Positions 2,795 through 14,377 of a DNA stretch of 14,377 bases are shown in pieces; position 1 is the first letter of the stretch, and each line of letters begins with the position of its first letter. Location: positions 1-14,377 of the forward strand of contig JAUWOV010000046.1 in NCBI GenBank assembly GCA_030611945.1, written 5' to 3'. The notes beneath the pieces were generated by a model. That model saw nothing but the letters and a program-made list of their open reading frames with translations, ran no database searches and was not told the DNA's origin. Position numbers and translations under genes: made by a program. The DNA comes from a bacterium (GTDB taxonomy: Bacteria; JAHJDO01).

Positions 2795-2895
2795 ATACAA
2801 TTATAAAAGAGCTTGAGAGAATATCGCTCAAGTTTGTTGGATTAAATAAAGACATCTGCAAAATAGAGAAAATAGGTGGTAAGGACGATGAATAA
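2791..2895 (+). CDS. Micro-ORF, 34 aa, overlapping the PilZ start
   Basis: The frame starts MNTIIKELERISLKFVGLNK and ends KIEKIGGKDDE. Its TAA (2893-2895) lies just past the PilZ ATG (2888), an 8-base overlap. It has no ribosome-binding site of its own, but its ATG overlaps the stop of the preceding micro-ORF, so expression would depend on coupling. The peptide looks helical and charged, and I recognise no family. Together with the previous frame it fills the 166 bases between the DnaA-like and PilZ genes. Confidence 0.3.
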   Translation: MNTIIKELERISLKFVGLNKDICKIEKIGGKDDE

Positions 2896-3268
2896 TTGGA
2901 ATGGTGAAGAAAGAAGAAGATACCCGCGATTTGCTTCTGGAGGAGATGTTCTACTAAGATTAGAAGATGACTCGGGGAAACATCTAATTCAATATCACGG
3001 CTATTGCAAAAATATAAGTCTTAAGGGTATCTGCATAAAAATATCCCCAGGATATCGTGAGATAAAAGAAAAGACAAAACTTCAGGTAAAAATACCTGTG
3101 TGTGACACGAGGCACTATTTGGAGCTAACTGGAGAGGTGGCATGGTGTTCACAAGACGAAAAAGGCAGCAAGATTGGCATACAGTTCCTCTCAAATAATA
3201 ACAAAGGAAAGGAAGTGTTGCTTTTTCAGCTTGTGGAAAATGTGAGAAAAAAAGCAAGTGGTGGCTAA
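2888..3268 (+). CDS. PilZ-domain c-di-GMP-binding protein
   Basis: This 126-aa single-domain protein fits the PilZ family, whose members bind cyclic di-GMP and act by protein contact, often on pili or motility. Both ligand motifs are intact: Arg10-x3-Arg14 in EERRRYPRF, and Asn42-x-Ser44-x2-Gly47 in NISLKGICI. The beta-barrel continues through LQVKIP, ELTGEVAWC and SKIGIQF. The start is set at ATG 2888: GGTGG lies seven bases before it, an upstream in-frame GTG (2876) lies inside that ribosome-binding site, and the relic at 2024 begins at the same residue. It is encoded upstream of a prepilin and on the same strand as the pilus motor. It is therefore a plausible c-di-GMP receptor for the system, for example acting on the assembly ATPase; this partner is inferred. 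Confidence 0.9.
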   Translation: MNNWNGEERRRYPRFASGGDVLLRLEDDSGKHLIQYHGYCKNISLKGICIKISPGYREIKEKTKLQVKIPVCDTRHYLELTGEVAWCSQDEKGSKIGIQFLSNNNKGKEVLLFQLVENVRKKASGG

Positions 3269-3683: not shown

Positions 3684-3735
3684 TGTTTATTAATTTTTTC
3701 TTCTTTAATGGAAAAGAAAGGGGGTGAATAATAAA

Positions 3736-4320
3736 ATGTTGAAATTTCTTAGAAAATCCACTAAAGGATTCACGCTTATTGAATTGTTGGTCGTTATAGC
3801 GATTATTGCTCTTCTTGCATCCATGCTGCTGCCGGCGCTGGCAAAAGCGAGAGAGCAGGCAAGAAAGGCAAAGTGCTTAAGCAACCTGAAACAGATCGGT
3901 CTCGCTCTGCATATGTATGCTCAGGACTGGGATGAGAACTTCCCAATCTACGGAGCGAGCGTAGCGAGGTTGGACCTTGAGCGTCTCATTCCAGCTTATG
4001 TTCCTACGAGTGTGTTTGTGTGTCCGAGCAGCTCGGACACTAAGTCTTCGACTGATCTCCTCGCTGTTGGCGAGCTTTCCTACGCCTATGAGGATGCATT
4101 GGGCGAGATGAGCGAAAGCGATAGCCCGATTATGGTTGATCAGTCTGGAGCAGCAGGAAAAGCCGATGTGTGGAATGCAGCGTTAACTGGTGCGGAAGTT
4201 AATCATGGTACTGACGGTGTCAACGTGCTTTATGTTGGCGGTCACGTATTGTGGATTCCGGTAGGTAGCATCGTGGCAAGTCAGTTTACAAAAATGGATA
4301 ATGCTAGTTTTGATCTCTGA
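3736..4320 (+). CDS. Type IV prepilin-like protein, H-X9-DG-like
   Basis: The 194-aa product has a class III signal: [11 protein letters not shown], cleaved before Phe12, then [20 protein letters not shown] with Glu at +5. Prepilin peptidase would cut and N-methylate it, and the hydrophobic helix would anchor it in the membrane or pilus core. The helix continues as [20 protein letters not shown] with [12 protein letters not shown]-type features of the planctomycete/verrucomicrobial family. Near the C-terminus [16 protein letters not shown] resembles the H-X9-DG signature, with one extra spacer residue and GG in place of DG. ATG 3736 follows GGGGGTGA by eight bases; the in-frame GTG at 3724 is part of that ribosome-binding site. 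It is isolated from the main pilin cluster by 6.3 kb and followed by a hairpin, so it may be an independently expressed pilin or pseudopilin. Confidence 0.85.
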
Positions 4321-7652: not shown

Positions 7653-9332
7653 ATGATTGAGGTGAAAAGAAAAAAGCTGGGTGAGATTCTTATTGAAAAA
7701 GAGCTGATAACAAGGGAGCAGCTGAAGGAGGCTATTAAAAGGCAAAGAGAAACTGACGAATTTCTAGGACAGAGTCTGGTTTGTCTCGATTTTATAAAAG
7801 AGGAGACTCTTGTGGAAGAACTGAGTTCTCATCTTCGCATACCCAAAGTGGATCTTTCTAACTATCTTATTGATCCTGAAATTACACATCTTGTGAAAGA
7901 AGATATCTGTCGGGAGTATTGTCTTATGCCTCTTTTCAAGATTGATAATACCCTCACGATTGCAATGGCTAATCCAATGAATCTGGAAACTATTGATAGA
8001 ATACAATCTGATACAGGCTGTATTGTTGAACCTGTAATAAGCACAGAAACTGGCATAAAAGAAGCGATTGACCACTATTATCACGCTACTGATACCATTC
8101 GGGATATAGCGCAGAGCGTCAGCATAGAGAAGGAACCCTCTCTAATTGGTGGGCCCAAAATAGAAGCAGCTGAAAAACCATCTGTGGTAAAGTCAGTTGA
8201 CCTTATTATATCCCAGGCAATTGCTGATGGGGCAAGCGATATTCATATTGAGCCGGATGAGAATATCCTCAGAGTGCGTTACAGGATTGACGGAATTTTA
8301 CATGAAAATCTTCAACTTCCTATCCATCTTCATCCGGTAATTGTCTCCAGAATCAAGATTCTCTCAGGAATGAATATTGCTGAGAAAAGGGTGCCTCAGG
8401 ATGGGCATATTGAATTTAAAGCTGAGGGGAAAGAGATAGATGTGAGAGCATCCACATTCCCAACAATACGGGGTGAGAAAGTTGTTCTTCGTCTTCTCTA
8501 CCGCGGCGACATCAAATATGACTTGAGTGAGCTGGGATTTCCGCCTGATATGTTGAAAAAATTTGAGCGTCTTATCAGCCGTCCACATGGGATTATTCTT
8601 GTTACGGGGCCAACCGGCTCTGGCAAGACAACCACACTTTATGCAGCTCTTAATAAGATAAGCACGAAAGAAATAAATATAACCACAATTGAAGACCCTG
8701 TGGAATATAAGCTAAATAGTCTTAACCAATCGCAAATTAATCCCCGTGCAGGATGGACATTTGAGACAGGACTTCGCAATATCCTCAGGCAGGACCCTGA
8801 CGTGATAATGGTGGGTGAAATAAGAGACACGGAAACAGCCAGAATAGCTATTCAATCAGCGCTTACGGGGCATCTGGTATTCAGCACGTTGCATACAAAT
8901 GATGCTCCTGGCGCTATAACAAGACTCATAGATATGGGAATTGAGCCGTTTTTGGTTTCCTCTTCAATTATCGGCGCATTAGCGCAAAGACTGGTTCGCG
9001 TTATCTGCCCTCACTGCAGGGAGGCTTATGAGCCGGGGAAGGAGCTTTTGAAAACTCTTGGCATGGATACGGGCACAAAGTTTTATAAAAAGAAAGGTTG
9101 CCGAAATTGCAACAATACAGGTTACAGAGGAAGAACAGGTATATTTGAGTTCATGATTCCAGAGGAGGAACTGCGCTCTCTTATTACTGCCAAATCCCCT
9201 CCGCATGTTATTCGTCAGGCTGCGCGTCGCAGTGGCATGGTGACTTTGAGGGAGGCAGGGTTGCCTCTCCTCAGAAATGGCAGGACTACGGTTGAAGAAC
9301 TCCTGCGAGTTACGCAGGACGAGGAAGGATAG
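7653..9332 (+). CDS. pilB: Type IV pilus/T2SS assembly ATPase
   Basis: This 559-aa hexameric motor ATPase of the PilB/GspE/MshE family powers pilus extension or pseudopilus assembly at the inner membrane. Residues 8-60 form an MshEN-type module with two repeats, KLGEILIEKELITREQL and FLGQSLVCLDFIKEETL. The Arg and Gly of the c-di-GMP-binding consensus are replaced, by Lys8/Glu17 in the first repeat and Phe37/Asp46 in the second. The ATPase core has Walker A GPTGSGKT (319-326), the Asp box TIEDPVEY (345-352), Walker B DPDVIMVGEIRD (381-392) and His box GHLVFSTLHTND (406-417). Cys452, Cys455, Cys483 and Cys486 form the zinc tetracysteine found in PilB/GspE but not PilT, so this is the extension type. 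It is followed by the platform protein two bases later. Confidence 0.95.
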   Translation: MIEVKRKKLGEILIEKELITREQLKEAIKRQRETDEFLGQSLVCLDFIKEETLVEELSSHLRIPKVDLSNYLIDPEITHLVKEDICREYCLMPLFKIDNTLTIAMANPMNLETIDRIQSDTGCIVEPVISTETGIKEAIDHYYHATDTIRDIAQSVSIEKEPSLIGGPKIEAAEKPSVVKSVDLIISQAIADGASDIHIEPDENILRVRYRIDGILHENLQLPIHLHPVIVSRIKILSGMNIAEKRVPQDGHIEFKAEGKEIDVRASTFPTIRGEKVVLRLLYRGDIKYDLSELGFPPDMLKKFERLISRPHGIILVTGPTGSGKTTTLYAALNKISTKEINITTIEDPVEYKLNSLNQSQINPRAGWTFETGLRNILRQDPDVIMVGEIRDTETARIAIQSALTGHLVFSTLHTNDAPGAITRLIDMGIEPFLVSSSIIGALAQRLVRVICPHCREAYEPGKELLKTLGMDTGTKFYKKKGCRNCNNTGYRGRTGIFEFMIPEEELRSLITAKSPPHVIRQAARRSGMVTLREAGLPLLRNGRTTVEELLRVTQDEEG

Positions 9333-9334
9333 AG

Positions 9335-10549
9335 GTGCCTATTTACAGATACAAAGGAAGAAAGGAAACAGGTGAAATAGTGGAAGGCGTTTTAGAAGCT
9401 CCTGATGAGGACGGCATAATGCAAAGAGTCAGTGAACTGGGTTATTCTATTTCCAGCATTTCACAGGAGCAGACATCATCTCATTTTCAAGAAAAATTTG
9501 CTATCAGGTTCACAAGAATAAAAAAGACCGATATCAGTCAGTTTGCAAGACAACTGGCAAGAATGCTTCGCTCTGGACTCACAGTTCTTCAGGCTTTTGA
9601 TATTCTGATAGAGCAGAGTGAAAATAAAAAGCTCAAGCAGGTTCTCACTCAGGTAAAAAGAGATATAGAAGAAGGGCTTTCTCTGTCAAATGCGCTGGCA
9701 AAGCATCCTAAGATATTTTCTTCTTTGTTTATGAATACATTGAGAGTTGGGGAAGAAAGTGGACAGATGGAGGAAGTTCTTGATCAGCTTGCTCTATTTC
9801 TGGAGAAAGAAGTGGATTTAAGGGGAAAGGTGAAGTCCGGACTGATGTATCCTGCAATGCTGGTAACAACAGCAGTTTTCGTTATCTTCTTTCTTGTAAC
9901 ATTTGTCTTCCCAAAATTTGCGTATATTTTTGCAAAAGCGAAGGTGCCCCTGCCTCCCCCAACCAGAATACTGTTTCAGTTCTCACTTTTCTTGAAGGAG
10001 CAATGGTATTTTATTCTCGGGGCCATCGTGATTATCATACTGGGTGTTCTTACCTATATCAGAACACCTGCAGGAAGATTAAGGTTTGACCGCCTGAAGC
10101 TTAATCTTCCGCTCTTTGGAAAGCTTTTTCGCGAAGTAGCCATCTCCAGATTCAGCAGGACCATGCAGATATTGACCCGCAGCGGAGTCAATATTCTGCC
10201 TTCCCTGCGTCTGGCCAGGGAAAGCGCGGGCAATGTGGTTTTTAGGAACGTGTTTGAAAATGTAGAGGTTACAGTCAGGAAAGGAGAGGGATTTTTCCAA
10301 CCTCTGGAAAGGAGCGGGGAGTTCCCTCCAATGGCTGTGCGGATGATCCGTGTTGGCGAAGAAACAGGGAGAATGGCAGAGGCGTTTGGGAATGTAGCTG
10401 AGAACTATGAGCAAGAGGTTGACCGTGTCTTAAAGAATCTGACAGCAATCCTTGAGCCGGTAATAGTGGTCATTATGGCTGTTGTTATTGGCTTTATCGC
10501 TCTTTCAATATTTCTACCTATATTTGATATGATAAAGGTAATCAAATAA
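9335..10549 (+). CDS. pilC: Pilus/T2SS platform protein
   Basis: This 404-aa inner-membrane protein carries two T2SSF (GspF) domains, the platform on which the ATPase turns and pilins are loaded. The N-terminal MPIYRYKGRKETGEIVEGVL is the usual PilC/GspF opening. The first repeat has FARQLARMLRSGL (70-82) and LRVGEESGQMEEVL (136-149); the second has FSRTMQILTRSGV (273-285) and IRVGEETGRMAEAF (338-351). Membrane segments are near 172-192, 225-241 and 374-397, typical of the family. The GTG start lies two bases after the ATPase stop, with GAGGAAGG just upstream, so the two are coupled in an operon. Its length is the family norm. Confidence 0.95.
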   Translation: MPIYRYKGRKETGEIVEGVLEAPDEDGIMQRVSELGYSISSISQEQTSSHFQEKFAIRFTRIKKTDISQFARQLARMLRSGLTVLQAFDILIEQSENKKLKQVLTQVKRDIEEGLSLSNALAKHPKIFSSLFMNTLRVGEESGQMEEVLDQLALFLEKEVDLRGKVKSGLMYPAMLVTTAVFVIFFLVTFVFPKFAYIFAKAKVPLPPPTRILFQFSLFLKEQWYFILGAIVIIILGVLTYIRTPAGRLRFDRLKLNLPLFGKLFREVAISRFSRTMQILTRSGVNILPSLRLARESAGNVVFRNVFENVEVTVRKGEGFFQPLERSGEFPPMAVRMIRVGEETGRMAEAFGNVAENYEQEVDRVLKNLTAILEPVIVVIMAVVIGFIALSIFLPIFDMIKVIK

Positions 10550-10637: not shown

Positions 10638-11120
10638 ATGATGAAATTCTTAAGAAAAAAAGGTGGTTTCACGCTGATTGAGATGCTGATGGTGATTCTC
10701 ATCATTGGATTTTTGGTGGGCATTCTGATGATAAGAGCAAGCAATGTCGCTGCTGATGCCAAGAAGAAGGCAGTTGCAGCAGACCTTAAATCACTGAAGG
10801 CAGCCGTGGAAGTCCATTATATAAGATATGGGCAATATCCAGCAGATGTAAGTGGCTACTTCACAGCAGACATAATAGAAGATTCTGCAACTCGCCTGGT
10901 GGATGAAATCCCTGACGACCCATATAATGGAACCACAAAGTATGGCTATGACACTGACAACGAAGCTGACCCTGCATCGGCACAATTCTACTGTATCTAC
11001 AGCGTTGGACCAGATGGTGCAGGCAGTTGTCATGTAAACGTTGCTGATACAGTTACCAGCACTGATACTAACAACATCTGGGTAAGCAACTGCAAAACTA
11101 ACAACCATGGTGGGATATGA
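10638..11120 (+). CDS. GspG-like prepilin 1
   Basis: This is a 160-aa prepilin with leader MMKFLRKKGG cut before Phe11, then FTLIEMLMVILIIGFLVGIL with Glu15 at +5. The globular part follows the GspG/major pseudopilin plan: a helix to about residue 62 (LKAAVEVHYIRYGQYPAD), then LVDEIPDDPYN and YCIYSVGPDG, corresponding to the calcium-loop region of GspG. Three cysteines (119, 131, 152) could form a disulfide. It ends WVSNCKTNNHGG, a motif shared with the next gene. A strong AGGAGGTGAG precedes ATG 10638 (ATG 10641 is also possible). It is probably the major subunit or one of two, but sequence alone does not distinguish type IV pilus from T2SS use. Confidence 0.9.
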   Translation: MMKFLRKKGGFTLIEMLMVILIIGFLVGILMIRASNVAADAKKKAVAADLKSLKAAVEVHYIRYGQYPADVSGYFTADIIEDSATRLVDEIPDDPYNGTTKYGYDTDNEADPASAQFYCIYSVGPDGAGSCHVNVADTVTSTDTNNIWVSNCKTNNHGGI

Positions 11121-11187
11121 CGATTTCTTGTCGTATCGGGAACTACACTTTGTTAATAAATCCTAAAAAGAAAGGTGGTGAGAAAAG

Positions 11188-11715
11188 ATGATGATGTTAA
11201 GAAAGAAGAAAGGGTTCACGCTGATTGAGATGCTGATAGTGCTTCTCATCATTGGATTTCTGGTAGCCATGCTGGCGATTAGAGCGAGTGATGCCGGCGA
11301 CGCGGCTAAGAAGAGAGCAACGAGCGCAGACCTCAAGAAGCTGAAGGAGGCAACTGAGGCGTTCTATGTTGCGCACGGCAGATTTCCTGCAGCAACACCG
11401 GCAGGAAAATGGGAGCTGGAGCTGGTTGATGAAAAGACCAGGTTAGTGGATGAGGTGCCTGTGGATCCGTATAATACTGCTACTTCACAGGGAGACTATG
11501 TCTACGCGCTCAACACTGATACTAATACTCTGAAAGGAACGTATTATGTCATCTACAGTGTTGGCCCTGACGAAAAAGCTGGGACTGTGACTGTTACTGC
11601 TGCAAGTGGCGGTAATCCTGCTACCTATAGAGGTACAGTGACTGTTGGTACTGGCGATAGTGCGGACAATCTCTATGTCAGCAATTGCTTCGTGAACAAC
11701 CACAACTTCAAGTAA
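11188..11715 (+). CDS. GspG-like prepilin 2 (tandem paralogue)
   Basis: This 175-aa prepilin has leader MMMLRKKKG, Phe10 at +1 and Glu14 at +5 in FTLIEMLIVLLIIGFLVAML. Its body parallels prepilin 1: LKKLKEATEAFYVAHGRFPA, TRLVDEVPVDPYN, YYVIYSVGPDE and a C-terminal YVSNCFVNNH. Only the last cysteine (Cys167) is retained. An insertion rich in Thr, Val and Gly (about 132-156, VTVTAASGGNPATYRGTVTV) adds beta-strand material absent from prepilin 1. ATG follows AAAGGTGGTGAG. The two likely arose by tandem duplication and diverged. A terminator-like hairpin lies 20 bases after its stop, which would make these two the most abundant products of the cluster. Confidence 0.9.
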   Translation: MMMLRKKKGFTLIEMLIVLLIIGFLVAMLAIRASDAGDAAKKRATSADLKKLKEATEAFYVAHGRFPAATPAGKWELELVDEKTRLVDEVPVDPYNTATSQGDYVYALNTDTNTLKGTYYVIYSVGPDEKAGTVTVTAASGGNPATYRGTVTVGTGDSADNLYVSNCFVNNHNFK

Positions 11716-11777: not shown

Positions 11778-12254
11778 ATGAAAAAAGGTTTCTCTCTTAT
11801 TGAGGTATTGGTTACAGTAGCAATAGTTGGCTTTGGGCTGATTGCTATAGTTGAGATGTTTAATGTAACTGGCAGGGGAAGCGAGGGCGCTGAGAATCTT
11901 TCTATTGCGACCAACCTCGCGCAGGAGAGAATGGAAGAGATAAGGCATCTTGCGCAGAATGGGGTTAAAATTAGTGTAGGAACCGGGAATAATTCTGGAG
12001 ATGATTTTTTACCGGATTTAGAAAGTGTTAGCACCGATTCTTATCTGGACGAAAACCTTTACCTCACCGAATCAGATACTTATCGGACAGATTCTTCTCT
12101 TTCAGCAATGACGCCTTCCCGACGCGTTGACAGAGTTACTCAGGTTGAATGGGCAGAGGGAGAGAATACCTACAAAAAAGTTCAGGTTACCGTATTCTGG
12201 CAGGAGAAAGGAAAGACCCTCTCTATGGGATTGGTGAGCTATGTTAGGGAATAA
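11778..12254 (+). CDS. PilV/GspI-like minor prepilin
   Basis: The 158-aa product starts MKKG, cleaved before Phe5, then FSLIEVLVTVAIVGFGLIAI with Glu9 at +5. The sequence ATNLAQERMEEIRHLAQNG (45-63) is characteristic of PilV/GspI minor pilins, which help prime assembly at the tip. A beta-rich C-terminal part follows (RVDRVTQVEW, YKKVQVTVFW, LSMGLVSYV). ATG 11778 gives the canonical short leader but has no visible Shine-Dalgarno; the in-frame ATG 11727 would precede the hairpin and give an improbably long leader. Its stop overlaps the next gene by 14 bases, so the two minor prepilins are translationally coupled. Confidence 0.85.
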   Translation: MKKGFSLIEVLVTVAIVGFGLIAIVEMFNVTGRGSEGAENLSIATNLAQERMEEIRHLAQNGVKISVGTGNNSGDDFLPDLESVSTDSYLDENLYLTESDTYRTDSSLSAMTPSRRVDRVTQVEWAEGENTYKKVQVTVFWQEKGKTLSMGLVSYVRE

Positions 12255-14377
12255 ACTCAAAACTCAAAACTTGAGAGGATTGACTCTTATTGAGGTGCTT
12301 CTATCCGTGGTTATAATTTCACTAATGATGGGGGCTGTTGTCATCATATATACAGGAGCCCTGCGTAATTGGAACTGGATGGATCCGAAATTACTCCTTC
12401 AACAGGAAGCAACCATCGCAATGAACAAAATTGAACGTCAGTTGAAGAAAGCAGGCAGTATCTACCATGCTTCTGATAAGAGTGTGACTTTCTCTCCTTT
12501 ACCTCTCGTTACTCCCAAGGTGGATAGCTATACTGTTTCTCTCTGGCGTTTTGATGAAGGAATTGGCACAACTGCTGAAGATGAAACTGACAGTAACGAC
12601 GGAACATTAGGTATTGGCGTTGGTCAGAGGCCAGCCTGGACTGCTAGTGGTGAGAATGGTTATGCTCTTGACTTTGACGGTAAGAATGATCTCGTAGATT
12701 GTGGTAGTGGAAACACCTTAGATATTGCGGATAAATTGACTGTAGAGGCATGGATACAACCTGATTCAGGAAGTGCAGATGGAGCAATTATCTATAAGGA
12801 TAATGCTTACAGGTTATACTTGAATTCTGATGATAAATTGGTAGGAAGTATCTATTACAGTTCTGCCTGGCATGGTATTGCAAGTACCAGCAGGATTACC
12901 AGAAATGGAAGTACCTGGACAAATGTTGCCTTCACCTATGATAAAGATGAGGGAACAGGCGAGGAACTGAGACTTTATATCAATGGCATAATAGATGCGA
13001 CAGCAAATCATACTAGCAATATTTCTACTTCAGGCAACAATCTCTATATTGGCCGGGACCATACTAAAGAACGCTATCCTTTCAACGGTGTGATAGATGA
13101 GGTGCGTGTATCAAATGATATACGCAGAACAAAAATTTCATGGGAGGGCGATGCAGAGGACAAGATAGTTTTAGAAGTCAGTGGAATCAGCCACCAATTG
13201 AATGATGAATGCAATACTGATACCTTTGTTATGAATTATTATGATGAGAATTACAACAAGGTAACTGATACCACTACACAGGAAAATCGCAACAGTATCA
13301 GAATAGTTAAGGTCTTATTAGGATTAGAAAAGGATAGTCAGGAATTTAGTTTAGAGAATGTAACCACCTTAAGAAAGGAATTGCCCGGGGAGGCAGAAAC
13401 AGGTCTTGTTGGTTATTGGAAGATGGATGAAGATTCCTGGAATGGCACTACCGGTGAAGTAATTGACTCATCCGGAAACAACAATCATGGCACAGCCAAA
13501 AATGGAGCAAACACAATAGCCAGCGGTAAAGTTGGTCGCTGTGGAAATTTTGATGGGAGTGATGATTATGTTTCTGCTCCAAACATCTACTGGCCTGCGA
13601 ATACTGATTTCGCAATAGAGTATTGGATGAAATTTTCTTCATATTCTCCTTATCAAAATATTTTATCAACAACTACAAGTGGTCATGGAAATAGTGGCTG
13701 GTGGACTGAATTCGGTTCCGCCAGAGGATTCACTATGTACAGCAACAGAAACCTCGTTTTATCTGATAATATTATCACTTTAACGGGTTTGAGTACAGAT
13801 ACTTGGTATCATGTTGTGATAACAAGAAGCGGAATGGGAGCAAATAATACCAAAGGTTACATTAATAATACTCTTTTTGGACAATCATCAAGCAATATTG
13901 CGATTGGAGACGCAACAAATAATTTGTTATTTGGGAAATATGCCAAAACCGCAAGTACATCTCGGCTCAACGGCACAATAGACGAAGTGAAAATATATAA
14001 TCGCGCTCTATCTGAAGAGGAGATAGAGGCACACTATCTGGGTCTGGTTGCCCTCTATCATATGGATGAAGATTCATGGGATGGAACAGCGGATAAGGTA
14101 ATTGACTCGTCTGGCAAGGGTAACCATGGATCCGCACATGGCGGGGCAAGTATTGTTCTTAATGGCGGACCCACAACTCCAGACGGATATGACTGCGGCA
14201 ACTGCGGCTCTTTTGATGGGAGTGATGATTATATTAATGTTACATCTTCTGATTTTTATTATAACGATGCCATAACAGTTGAGGCTTGGATTAAATTGGA
14301 TAAGGTGACTGGAGTTCAAGGTATAAGCACCTCTGGTGAAGAAGCGGGACAGCCACATTGGTTATTTCAAGTCAAGG
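12241..14377 (+). CDS. Giant PilW/GspJ-like prepilin with LamG-like domains (partial)
   Basis: The frame is open from ATG 12241 to the window end: 712 codons with no stop, so the gene is 3'-truncated here. The leader MLGNKLKTQNLRG precedes Leu14, then LTLIEVLLSVVIISLMMGAV with Glu18 at +5. A PilW/GspJ-like region follows (QQEATIAMNKIERQLKKAG, KSVTFSPLP to residue 88). A LamG/concanavalin-like domain occupies about 100-298, from SLWRFDEGIG through ALDFDGKNDLVDCG, LTVEAWIQ and LRLYINGI to GVIDEVRVSN. The pilin core then resumes: ISWEGDAEDKIVLEVSG, FVMNYYDENYNK, SIRIVKVLLGLEKD (299-382). Two further LamG units start at 389 and 602, each opening with (Y/L)(W/Y)xMDEDSW and VIDSSGxxNHG. The identical 22-base segment at 13548-13569 and 14211-14232 points to recent duplication. 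LamG folds bind glycans or proteins, so a tip adhesin is the natural guess. Confidence 0.88.
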   Translation, partial: MLGNKLKTQNLRGLTLIEVLLSVVIISLMMGAVVIIYTGALRNWNWMDPKLLLQQEATIAMNKIERQLKKAGSIYHASDKSVTFSPLPLVTPKVDSYTVSLWRFDEGIGTTAEDETDSNDGTLGIGVGQRPAWTASGENGYALDFDGKNDLVDCGSGNTLDIADKLTVEAWIQPDSGSADGAIIYKDNAYRLYLNSDDKLVGSIYYSSAWHGIASTSRITRNGSTWTNVAFTYDKDEGTGEELRLYINGIIDATANHTSNISTSGNNLYIGRDHTKERYPFNGVIDEVRVSNDIRRTKISWEGDAEDKIVLEVSGISHQLNDECNTDTFVMNYYDENYNKVTDTTTQENRNSIRIVKVLLGLEKDSQEFSLENVTTLRKELPGEAETGLVGYWKMDEDSWNGTTGEVIDSSGNNNHGTAKNGANTIASGKVGRCGNFDGSDDYVSAPNIYWPANTDFAIEYWMKFSSYSPYQNILSTTTSGHGNSGWWTEFGSARGFTMYSNRNLVLSDNIITLTGLSTDTWYHVVITRSGMGANNTKGYINNTLFGQSSSNIAIGDATNNLLFGKYAKTASTSRLNGTIDEVKIYNRALSEEEIEAHYLGLVALYHMDEDSWDGTADKVIDSSGKGNHGSAHGGASIVLNGGPTTPDGYDCGNCGSFDGSDDYINVTSSDFYYNDAITVEAWIKLDKVTGVQGISTSGEEAGQPHWLFQVK

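Follow-up and report, generated by a model that had tools for sequence, protein, structure and literature searches.

One open reading frame in the window encodes a PilW/GspJ-type class III prepilin with a LamG domain set between the halves of its pilin core. The window, i.e., the whole stretch of DNA that we analyzed, is the entire contig C70 (14,377 bases) of a draft genome of 1.66 Mb in 119 contigs. We consider it probable that the gene encodes a type IV pilus minor pilin in the PilW/GspJ position, with the LamG domain sitting as a swappable cassette in the loop between the first two core strands. According to this explanation, a LamG (concanavalin-A-like, ConA-like) domain would have been inserted in the loop joining the first two strands of the globular core, and further display modules would be attached behind the core C-terminus. 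The two ends of a ConA-fold domain are near each other, a geometry that favours insertion in a loop. The two core halves, which presumably fold together, would preserve the place of the subunit in the PilV-PilW-PilX complex that initiates the tip. Projecting at the pilus tip or close to it, the LamG between them and the modules behind the core would act as adhesin units for a ligand, probably a glycan. The nested slot would be variable, in that homologous recombination in the conserved pilin-coding flanks could swap the LamG while leaving pilus assembly undisturbed.

Both nested domains in pilins (ComZ, GspK) and LamG domains on pilins are already known; a LamG nested in a PilW/GspJ-like core is new. 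We found no account in the literature of a LamG after the first PilW/GspJ strand combined with modules behind the core and an exchanged nested unit. Modular pilins are known chiefly with domains hung on their ends, and a nested lectin-type domain would extend the ComZ and GspK cases to another pilin position.

Architecture of the prepilin and its split core

The features of the gene and of the pilus genes upstream are collected in Table 1.

Table 1. Coordinates of the pilus genes in the window and of the parts of the LamG-bearing prepilin.
Feature	Residues	Position	Strand	Remarks
pilB		7653..9332	+	assembly ATPase, MshEN domain
pilC		9335..10549	+	platform protein, T2SSF
GspG-like pilin		10638..11120	+	
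GspG-like pilin		11188..11715	+	
pilV (GspI-like) minor pilin		11778..12254	+	3' end overlaps pilW start
pilW-like minor prepilin gene	712 aa	12241..14376	+	frame runs off contig end
PilW/GspJ core, N-terminal half	aa 12-95	12274..12525	+	class III signal motif RG/LTLIE, helix, first strand KSVTFSP
Nested LamG1	aa 97-296	12529..13128	+	PF13385 and TafC-type LamG matches; own LamG profile 99-293
Tract of raised synonymous divergence vs Ca. Theseobacter exili	aa 116-295	12586..13125	+	read as exchanged cassette
PilW/GspJ core, C-terminal half	aa 297-382	13129..13386	+	KISWEG...LRKEL; profile tests
Appended LamG2	aa 390-600	13408..14040	+	PF13385; own LamG profile
Appended LamG3	aa 603-712	14047..14376	+	own LamG profile; cut by contig end

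The prepilin motif RGLTLIEV occupies aa 12-19, with cleavage between G13 and L14 and Glu5 at E18, and the N_methyl family matches just above its cut-off (21.4 bits vs 21.2). The initial annotation had placed a break after KSVTFSPLP at about residue 88, a LamG unit at 100-298 and the end of the pilin-like strands near 382. These numbers agree with the positions in the ORF, where KSVTFSPLP is aa 80-88, ISWEG starts at aa 299 and the last residue of RKEL is aa 381. PF13385 matches three stretches of the protein well over its curated cut-off (179.6 bits vs 27.6), and its core in the nested domain is aa 146-293. That earlier reading had overlooked two further LamG units appended C-terminally (aa 390-712), so that the protein holds one nested LamG and at least two appended ones (the second at aa 390-588, the third at aa 603-712). 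In a sequence search of solved structures, the nested region matched the S-layer protein 4qvs, and the focal protein gave no match to GspJ. The TafC fimbrial model, for which we found no paper in the literature, covers the LamG part only and scores 77.5 bits (cut-off 410).

The Pfam family PF16074 (PilW) has no match in the focal protein or in its genus. It is also silent in the control genomes and matches in only 8 of 144 genomes, so we regard it as a narrow model. Because it had no matches in the phylum or in the control genomes, we built our own PilW/GspJ profile from 36 LamG-free homologues. The name PilW is used here for operon position and fold class, and not for PF16074.

Aligned alone, the N-terminal part of the core covers profile columns 2-107 (score 83.3) and the C-terminal part covers columns 131-191. 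When the two are spliced together, the match extends over columns 2-195 and the score rises to 105.9; LamG alone scores 1.2. The proposal that pilin-like strands resume after the LamG was borne out, as aa 295-384 score 30.7 against a mean of 10.8 and a maximum of 20.4 in 300 column shuffles, and a maximum of 16.9 among 134 windows of the same length from unrelated proteins. Taken on its own the match of the C-terminal half is modest (E ~5e-5 for one comparison; 7-12 bits with HMMER).

Shorter homologues lacking the LamG agree with these profile tests and fix the insertion point. A 156-aa PilW-like paralogue encoded elsewhere in the genome, on contig C111 (...DAQEIDFEDAYLERIKFWLDSNTIKR...), runs the first strand straight into the second, which places the insertion between strands KSVTFSP and KISWEG. 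A 234-aa homologue without LamG from another genome (G052; KQVSFRADLNDDGTLEQVEFKEV...) gives an alignment that spans the junction, and is also matched by the C-terminal part of the window protein. Because the split halves match the LamG-free profile in order and above all controls, we consider the nesting of a LamG-like domain within a PilW/GspJ-like core, as originally claimed, well supported at the sequence level.

It might be argued that only the N-terminal half is pilin, that aa 297-382 form a beta linker or a small domain unrelated to it, and that the LamG is merely appended to a minimal pilin. Neither Pfam nor NCBIfam has a pilin match for aa 288-387, and simple grafting of LamG is seen in other pilins (PMC8179133). 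Structure prediction with AlphaFold gave mean pLDDT values of 31.0 with a two-row alignment (window and T. exili) and 38.5 with a four-row alignment to which LamG2 and LamG3 of the window were added, and in these models the region of aa 297-382 has a pLDDT of about 25-35. Against this reading, the score of the C-terminal half was reached by none of the 300 shuffles and none of the 134 unrelated windows, and its match occupies the profile columns that follow those of the N-terminal half. It is also 84% identical to T. exili with 93% synonymous identity, a constraint about as strong as in the N-terminal half. We therefore regard a minimal pilin with an appended LamG as very improbable.

The initial annotation had called the insertion notable since domains are usually appended at the pilin C-terminus. 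This holds as a general rule (PMC8179133), and LamG (PF13385) is a known module of modular pilins (PMC8179133), but insertion within the sheet has precedents in ComZ and GspK (PMC6561018). ComZ of Thermus thermophilus has a GspK-like fold with a beta-solenoid between its penultimate and last strands (PMC6561018); here the LamG comes after the first core strand of a PilW/GspJ-like subunit, and further domains are appended. The initial annotation had suggested that the LamG would be displayed sideways from the tip; in ComZ, the inserted domain is aligned with the axis of the fibre (PMC6561018). The type II secretion system (T2SS) protein GspK is a tip pseudopilin with an alpha-helical domain between core strands 3 and 4 (PMC6561018, PMC8179133). 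Our case, known from sequence alone, resembles it in having a domain between core strands, but the insert of GspK is helical and GspK caps the tip, whereas the window protein has Glu5, the GspJ position and a lectin-type insert.

Pilus locus and predicted role of the subunit

The gene order response regulator-pilB-pilC-GspG-like pilin(s)-pilV-pilW (with nested LamG)-pilX-like-parA-like-pilM-N-O-P-secretin is common to the window, to Candidatus Theseobacter exili (Auribacterota), the closest public relative of the window genome, and to G229, a genome from a different GTDB phylum. The order pilV-pilW-pilX was read directly from the T. exili and G229 loci, and for the window through contig C30, by synteny. 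The first 481 bases of C30 contain the end of a LamG-bearing frame (the C-terminal half of a LamG), closing with GAYIYQWEEVFE, and a pilX with 83% identity to that of T. exili follows. The start of C30 is probably the 3' end of the window pilW; that C30 continues C70 is deduced from synteny, the two ends having no overlap. A LamG protein on contig C27 was also considered as the missing end and rejected, since its N-terminus bears a signal-like stretch of its own and C30 fits.

The set found nearby comprises PilB, PilC, GspG-like pilins, PilV, a PilX-like protein, PilM, PilN, PilO, PilP and a PilQ-type secretin, where PilN, PilO and PilP were assigned by position and gene order, and PilT homologues above the family cut-off are encoded elsewhere in the genome. 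All components used to recognize a type IVa pilus locus (PilB, PilC, PilM, PilN, PilO, PilP, a secretin, and PilT in the genome) were found. We read the locus as encoding a retractable type IV pilus in whose tip complex PilW takes the GspJ position. If it instead encoded a type II secretion pseudopilus, the LamG would be a periplasmic substrate receptor and not a surface adhesin. GspG is indeed the best-scoring family for both main pilins, and for PilB and the secretin the GspE and GspD models score about as high; however, PilM is above its family cut-off, the PilM and PilN-PilO-like genes are separate with no GspL fusion, and PilT homologues are present above cut-off, so that we judge a secretion pseudopilus to be quite unlikely.

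Within a type IV pilus, the window protein resembles the PilW/GspJ minor pilins of T4aP and T2SS in its operon position (PilV/GspI to PilX/GspK), its N-terminal half and its C-terminal strands. Where these have a short loop, it has a LamG of about 200 residues, and display modules stand behind its core. The subunit would be located at the tip, and its nested LamG most likely serves there, or close by, as an adhesin unit that binds a ligand. By analogy with PilC of Streptococcus sanguinis, a minor pilin whose ConA-like, lectin-fold module binds glycans (PMC9934059), the nested LamG may also bind glycans. The modules of PilC are grafted after the pilin part (PMC9934059), whereas here the domain is nested.

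Divergence of the nested LamG domain

Between the window and T. exili, the two core halves are 93% and 84% identical at the protein level and the LamG is 64% identical. Because protein divergence alone might reflect fast evolution, we compared synonymous sites. At third positions of codons for the same amino acid, 132 of 148 agree in the flanks and 62 of 119 in the LamG (Fisher p ~1e-11). A scan without preset borders delimited a low segment at aa 116-295, with 49 of 107 identical inside (46%) and 151 of 166 outside (91%); its log-likelihood gain (LLR) was 34.4, compared to at most 8.7 in 60 permutations. In 195-codon windows of seven neighbouring genes, synonymous identity was 0.70-0.92, against 0.52 in the LamG. 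Across the three genomes the LamG domains are about equally distant from each other (64, 58, and 56% amino acid identity), while the cores are 84-93% identical between the window and T. exili and 40-52% for the other pairs.

This jump in synonymous divergence, bounded by the domain, points to recombinational replacement of the nested LamG as a cassette. The simplest reading, which the data suggest, is that homologous recombination with a divergent allele of pilW replaced the LamG as a unit. The comparison draws on two close sequences, both apparently metagenome-derived drafts, and the window gene is split between C70 and C30.

Two other origins of the divergence have to be weighed. The nested LamG could be evolving fast through positive selection or local hypermutation, for example by a diversity-generating retroelement, with no cassette exchanged. 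The lower protein identity of the LamG (64% vs 93 and 84% in the flanks) would fit, but its synonymous sites have diverged nearly as much as in a cross-phylum comparison, which protein-level positive selection does not yield, and the substitutions affect all four bases and extend through most of the domain. We found no adenine bias (substitutions at A 59/181, C 36/96, G 50/148, T 48/161) and rejected the domain as a diversity-generating retroelement target since all four bases are substituted. Rapid evolution in place is accordingly a poor candidate, which we hold to be highly unlikely.

Alternatively, the LamG may be truly nested and its raised divergence a product of chimeric metagenome assembly, with LamG repeats joined across strains or genes. 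The window contig and contig C31 both end inside a LamG repeat, the T. exili genome was binned from a metagenome, and that of the window is a draft in 119 contigs. Yet the nested LamG is intact in three independent assemblies, and the nearest other LamG in the genus is about 38% identical, while the alleles of the slot are 56-64% identical among themselves, which argues that LamG1 is a true allele of the nested slot. A chimera thus seems unlikely, if somewhat less so than fast evolution.

Recombinational exchange of the nested LamG has a parallel in the ComC/FimU/PilV cassettes of Acinetobacter, where recombination also exchanges variants of pilus-tip components (PMC10374093). In Acinetobacter the exchange covers seven pilus genes as a block, whereas the tract described here coincides with a single nested domain within one gene. 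More tentatively, and with somewhat less than even confidence, we propose that the pilin core is a scaffold with two display slots, one nested between its first strands and one C-terminal, both reloaded by homologous recombination in conserved flanks. If so, lineages could change the binding specificity of the tip by swapping cassettes, with the assembly subunit kept constant. The domain-bounded synonymous divergence also makes a testable claim, namely that a nested slot permits exchange of a pilus adhesin with the assembly surface untouched.

A separate observation concerns the neighbouring pilV. Its middle part (approximately 11931-12083, codons ~52-102) has a synonymous identity to T. exili of 17/34, and its ends are well conserved. 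The middle of PilV may have been exchanged together with the PilW display region, or may be in contact with it.

Distribution and further features of the loci

The T. exili orthologue (749 aa, 75% identity over aa 4-384, LamG included) was the sole relative in GTDB genome contigs. Among 385 genomes searched, G229 gave one more full-length match (649 aa, 52% identity), and no further relatives were found among viral contigs. In the loci examined, just three genes out of 210 ORFs with a PilW N-terminal half contain a LamG, each time between the halves; the window gene was entered twice in this count, in two overlapping loci. What stands behind the core differs: the window has LamG repeats, G229 has LamG, and T. 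exili has a propeller-like region. In most other long PilW-like ORFs the core is uninterrupted and the additional sequence follows it, consistent with the usual C-terminal grafting (PMC8179133). Six with a large gap between the halves (L111, L112, L114, L115, L117, L038) had no nested LamG when their sequences were read; on this reading, the gaps look like ordinary longer PilW loops.

Several other features of these loci deserve mention. Each of the three loci has a conserved ParA-like ATPase gene, unusual in a pilus operon, that separates pilX from pilM (L036:7277-8053, L156:4384-5163 (-), L164:858-1634). The tail YIY[QK]WEE[IV]FE stands just before the stop codon in T. exili PilW, in the putative end of the window PilW on C30 and in a 508-aa ORF of G229 (L036:6832-6900; L164:413-481; L156 ORF 5565-7091 (-)), and the domains preceding it differ among the three proteins. 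This G229 ORF lies between pilW and pilX (L156:5565-9037 (-)) and has an N-terminal signal-like stretch; no Pfam family was recognised in it, and a PilY1-like role would be a guess. Tandem GspG-like pilins are found in the window (two, 10638-11715) and in G229 (two nearly identical copies, L156:9613-10632 (-)), and T. exili has one GspG-like pilin and a different 116-aa ORF.

In the window genome (G000), contigs break within LamG domains at the end of C70 and at the starts of C31 and C30, probably because LamG repeats disturb assembly. The same genome has six PilC/GspF-type matches and three PilT-family genes over the cut-off, suggesting that several type IV filament systems coexist in 1.66 Mb. 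Upstream of the pilus genes, the window encodes a small DnaA C-terminal-domain protein (2416-2721), a PilZ-domain protein (2876-3268) and a 198-aa DUF1559-type prepilin (3724-4320).
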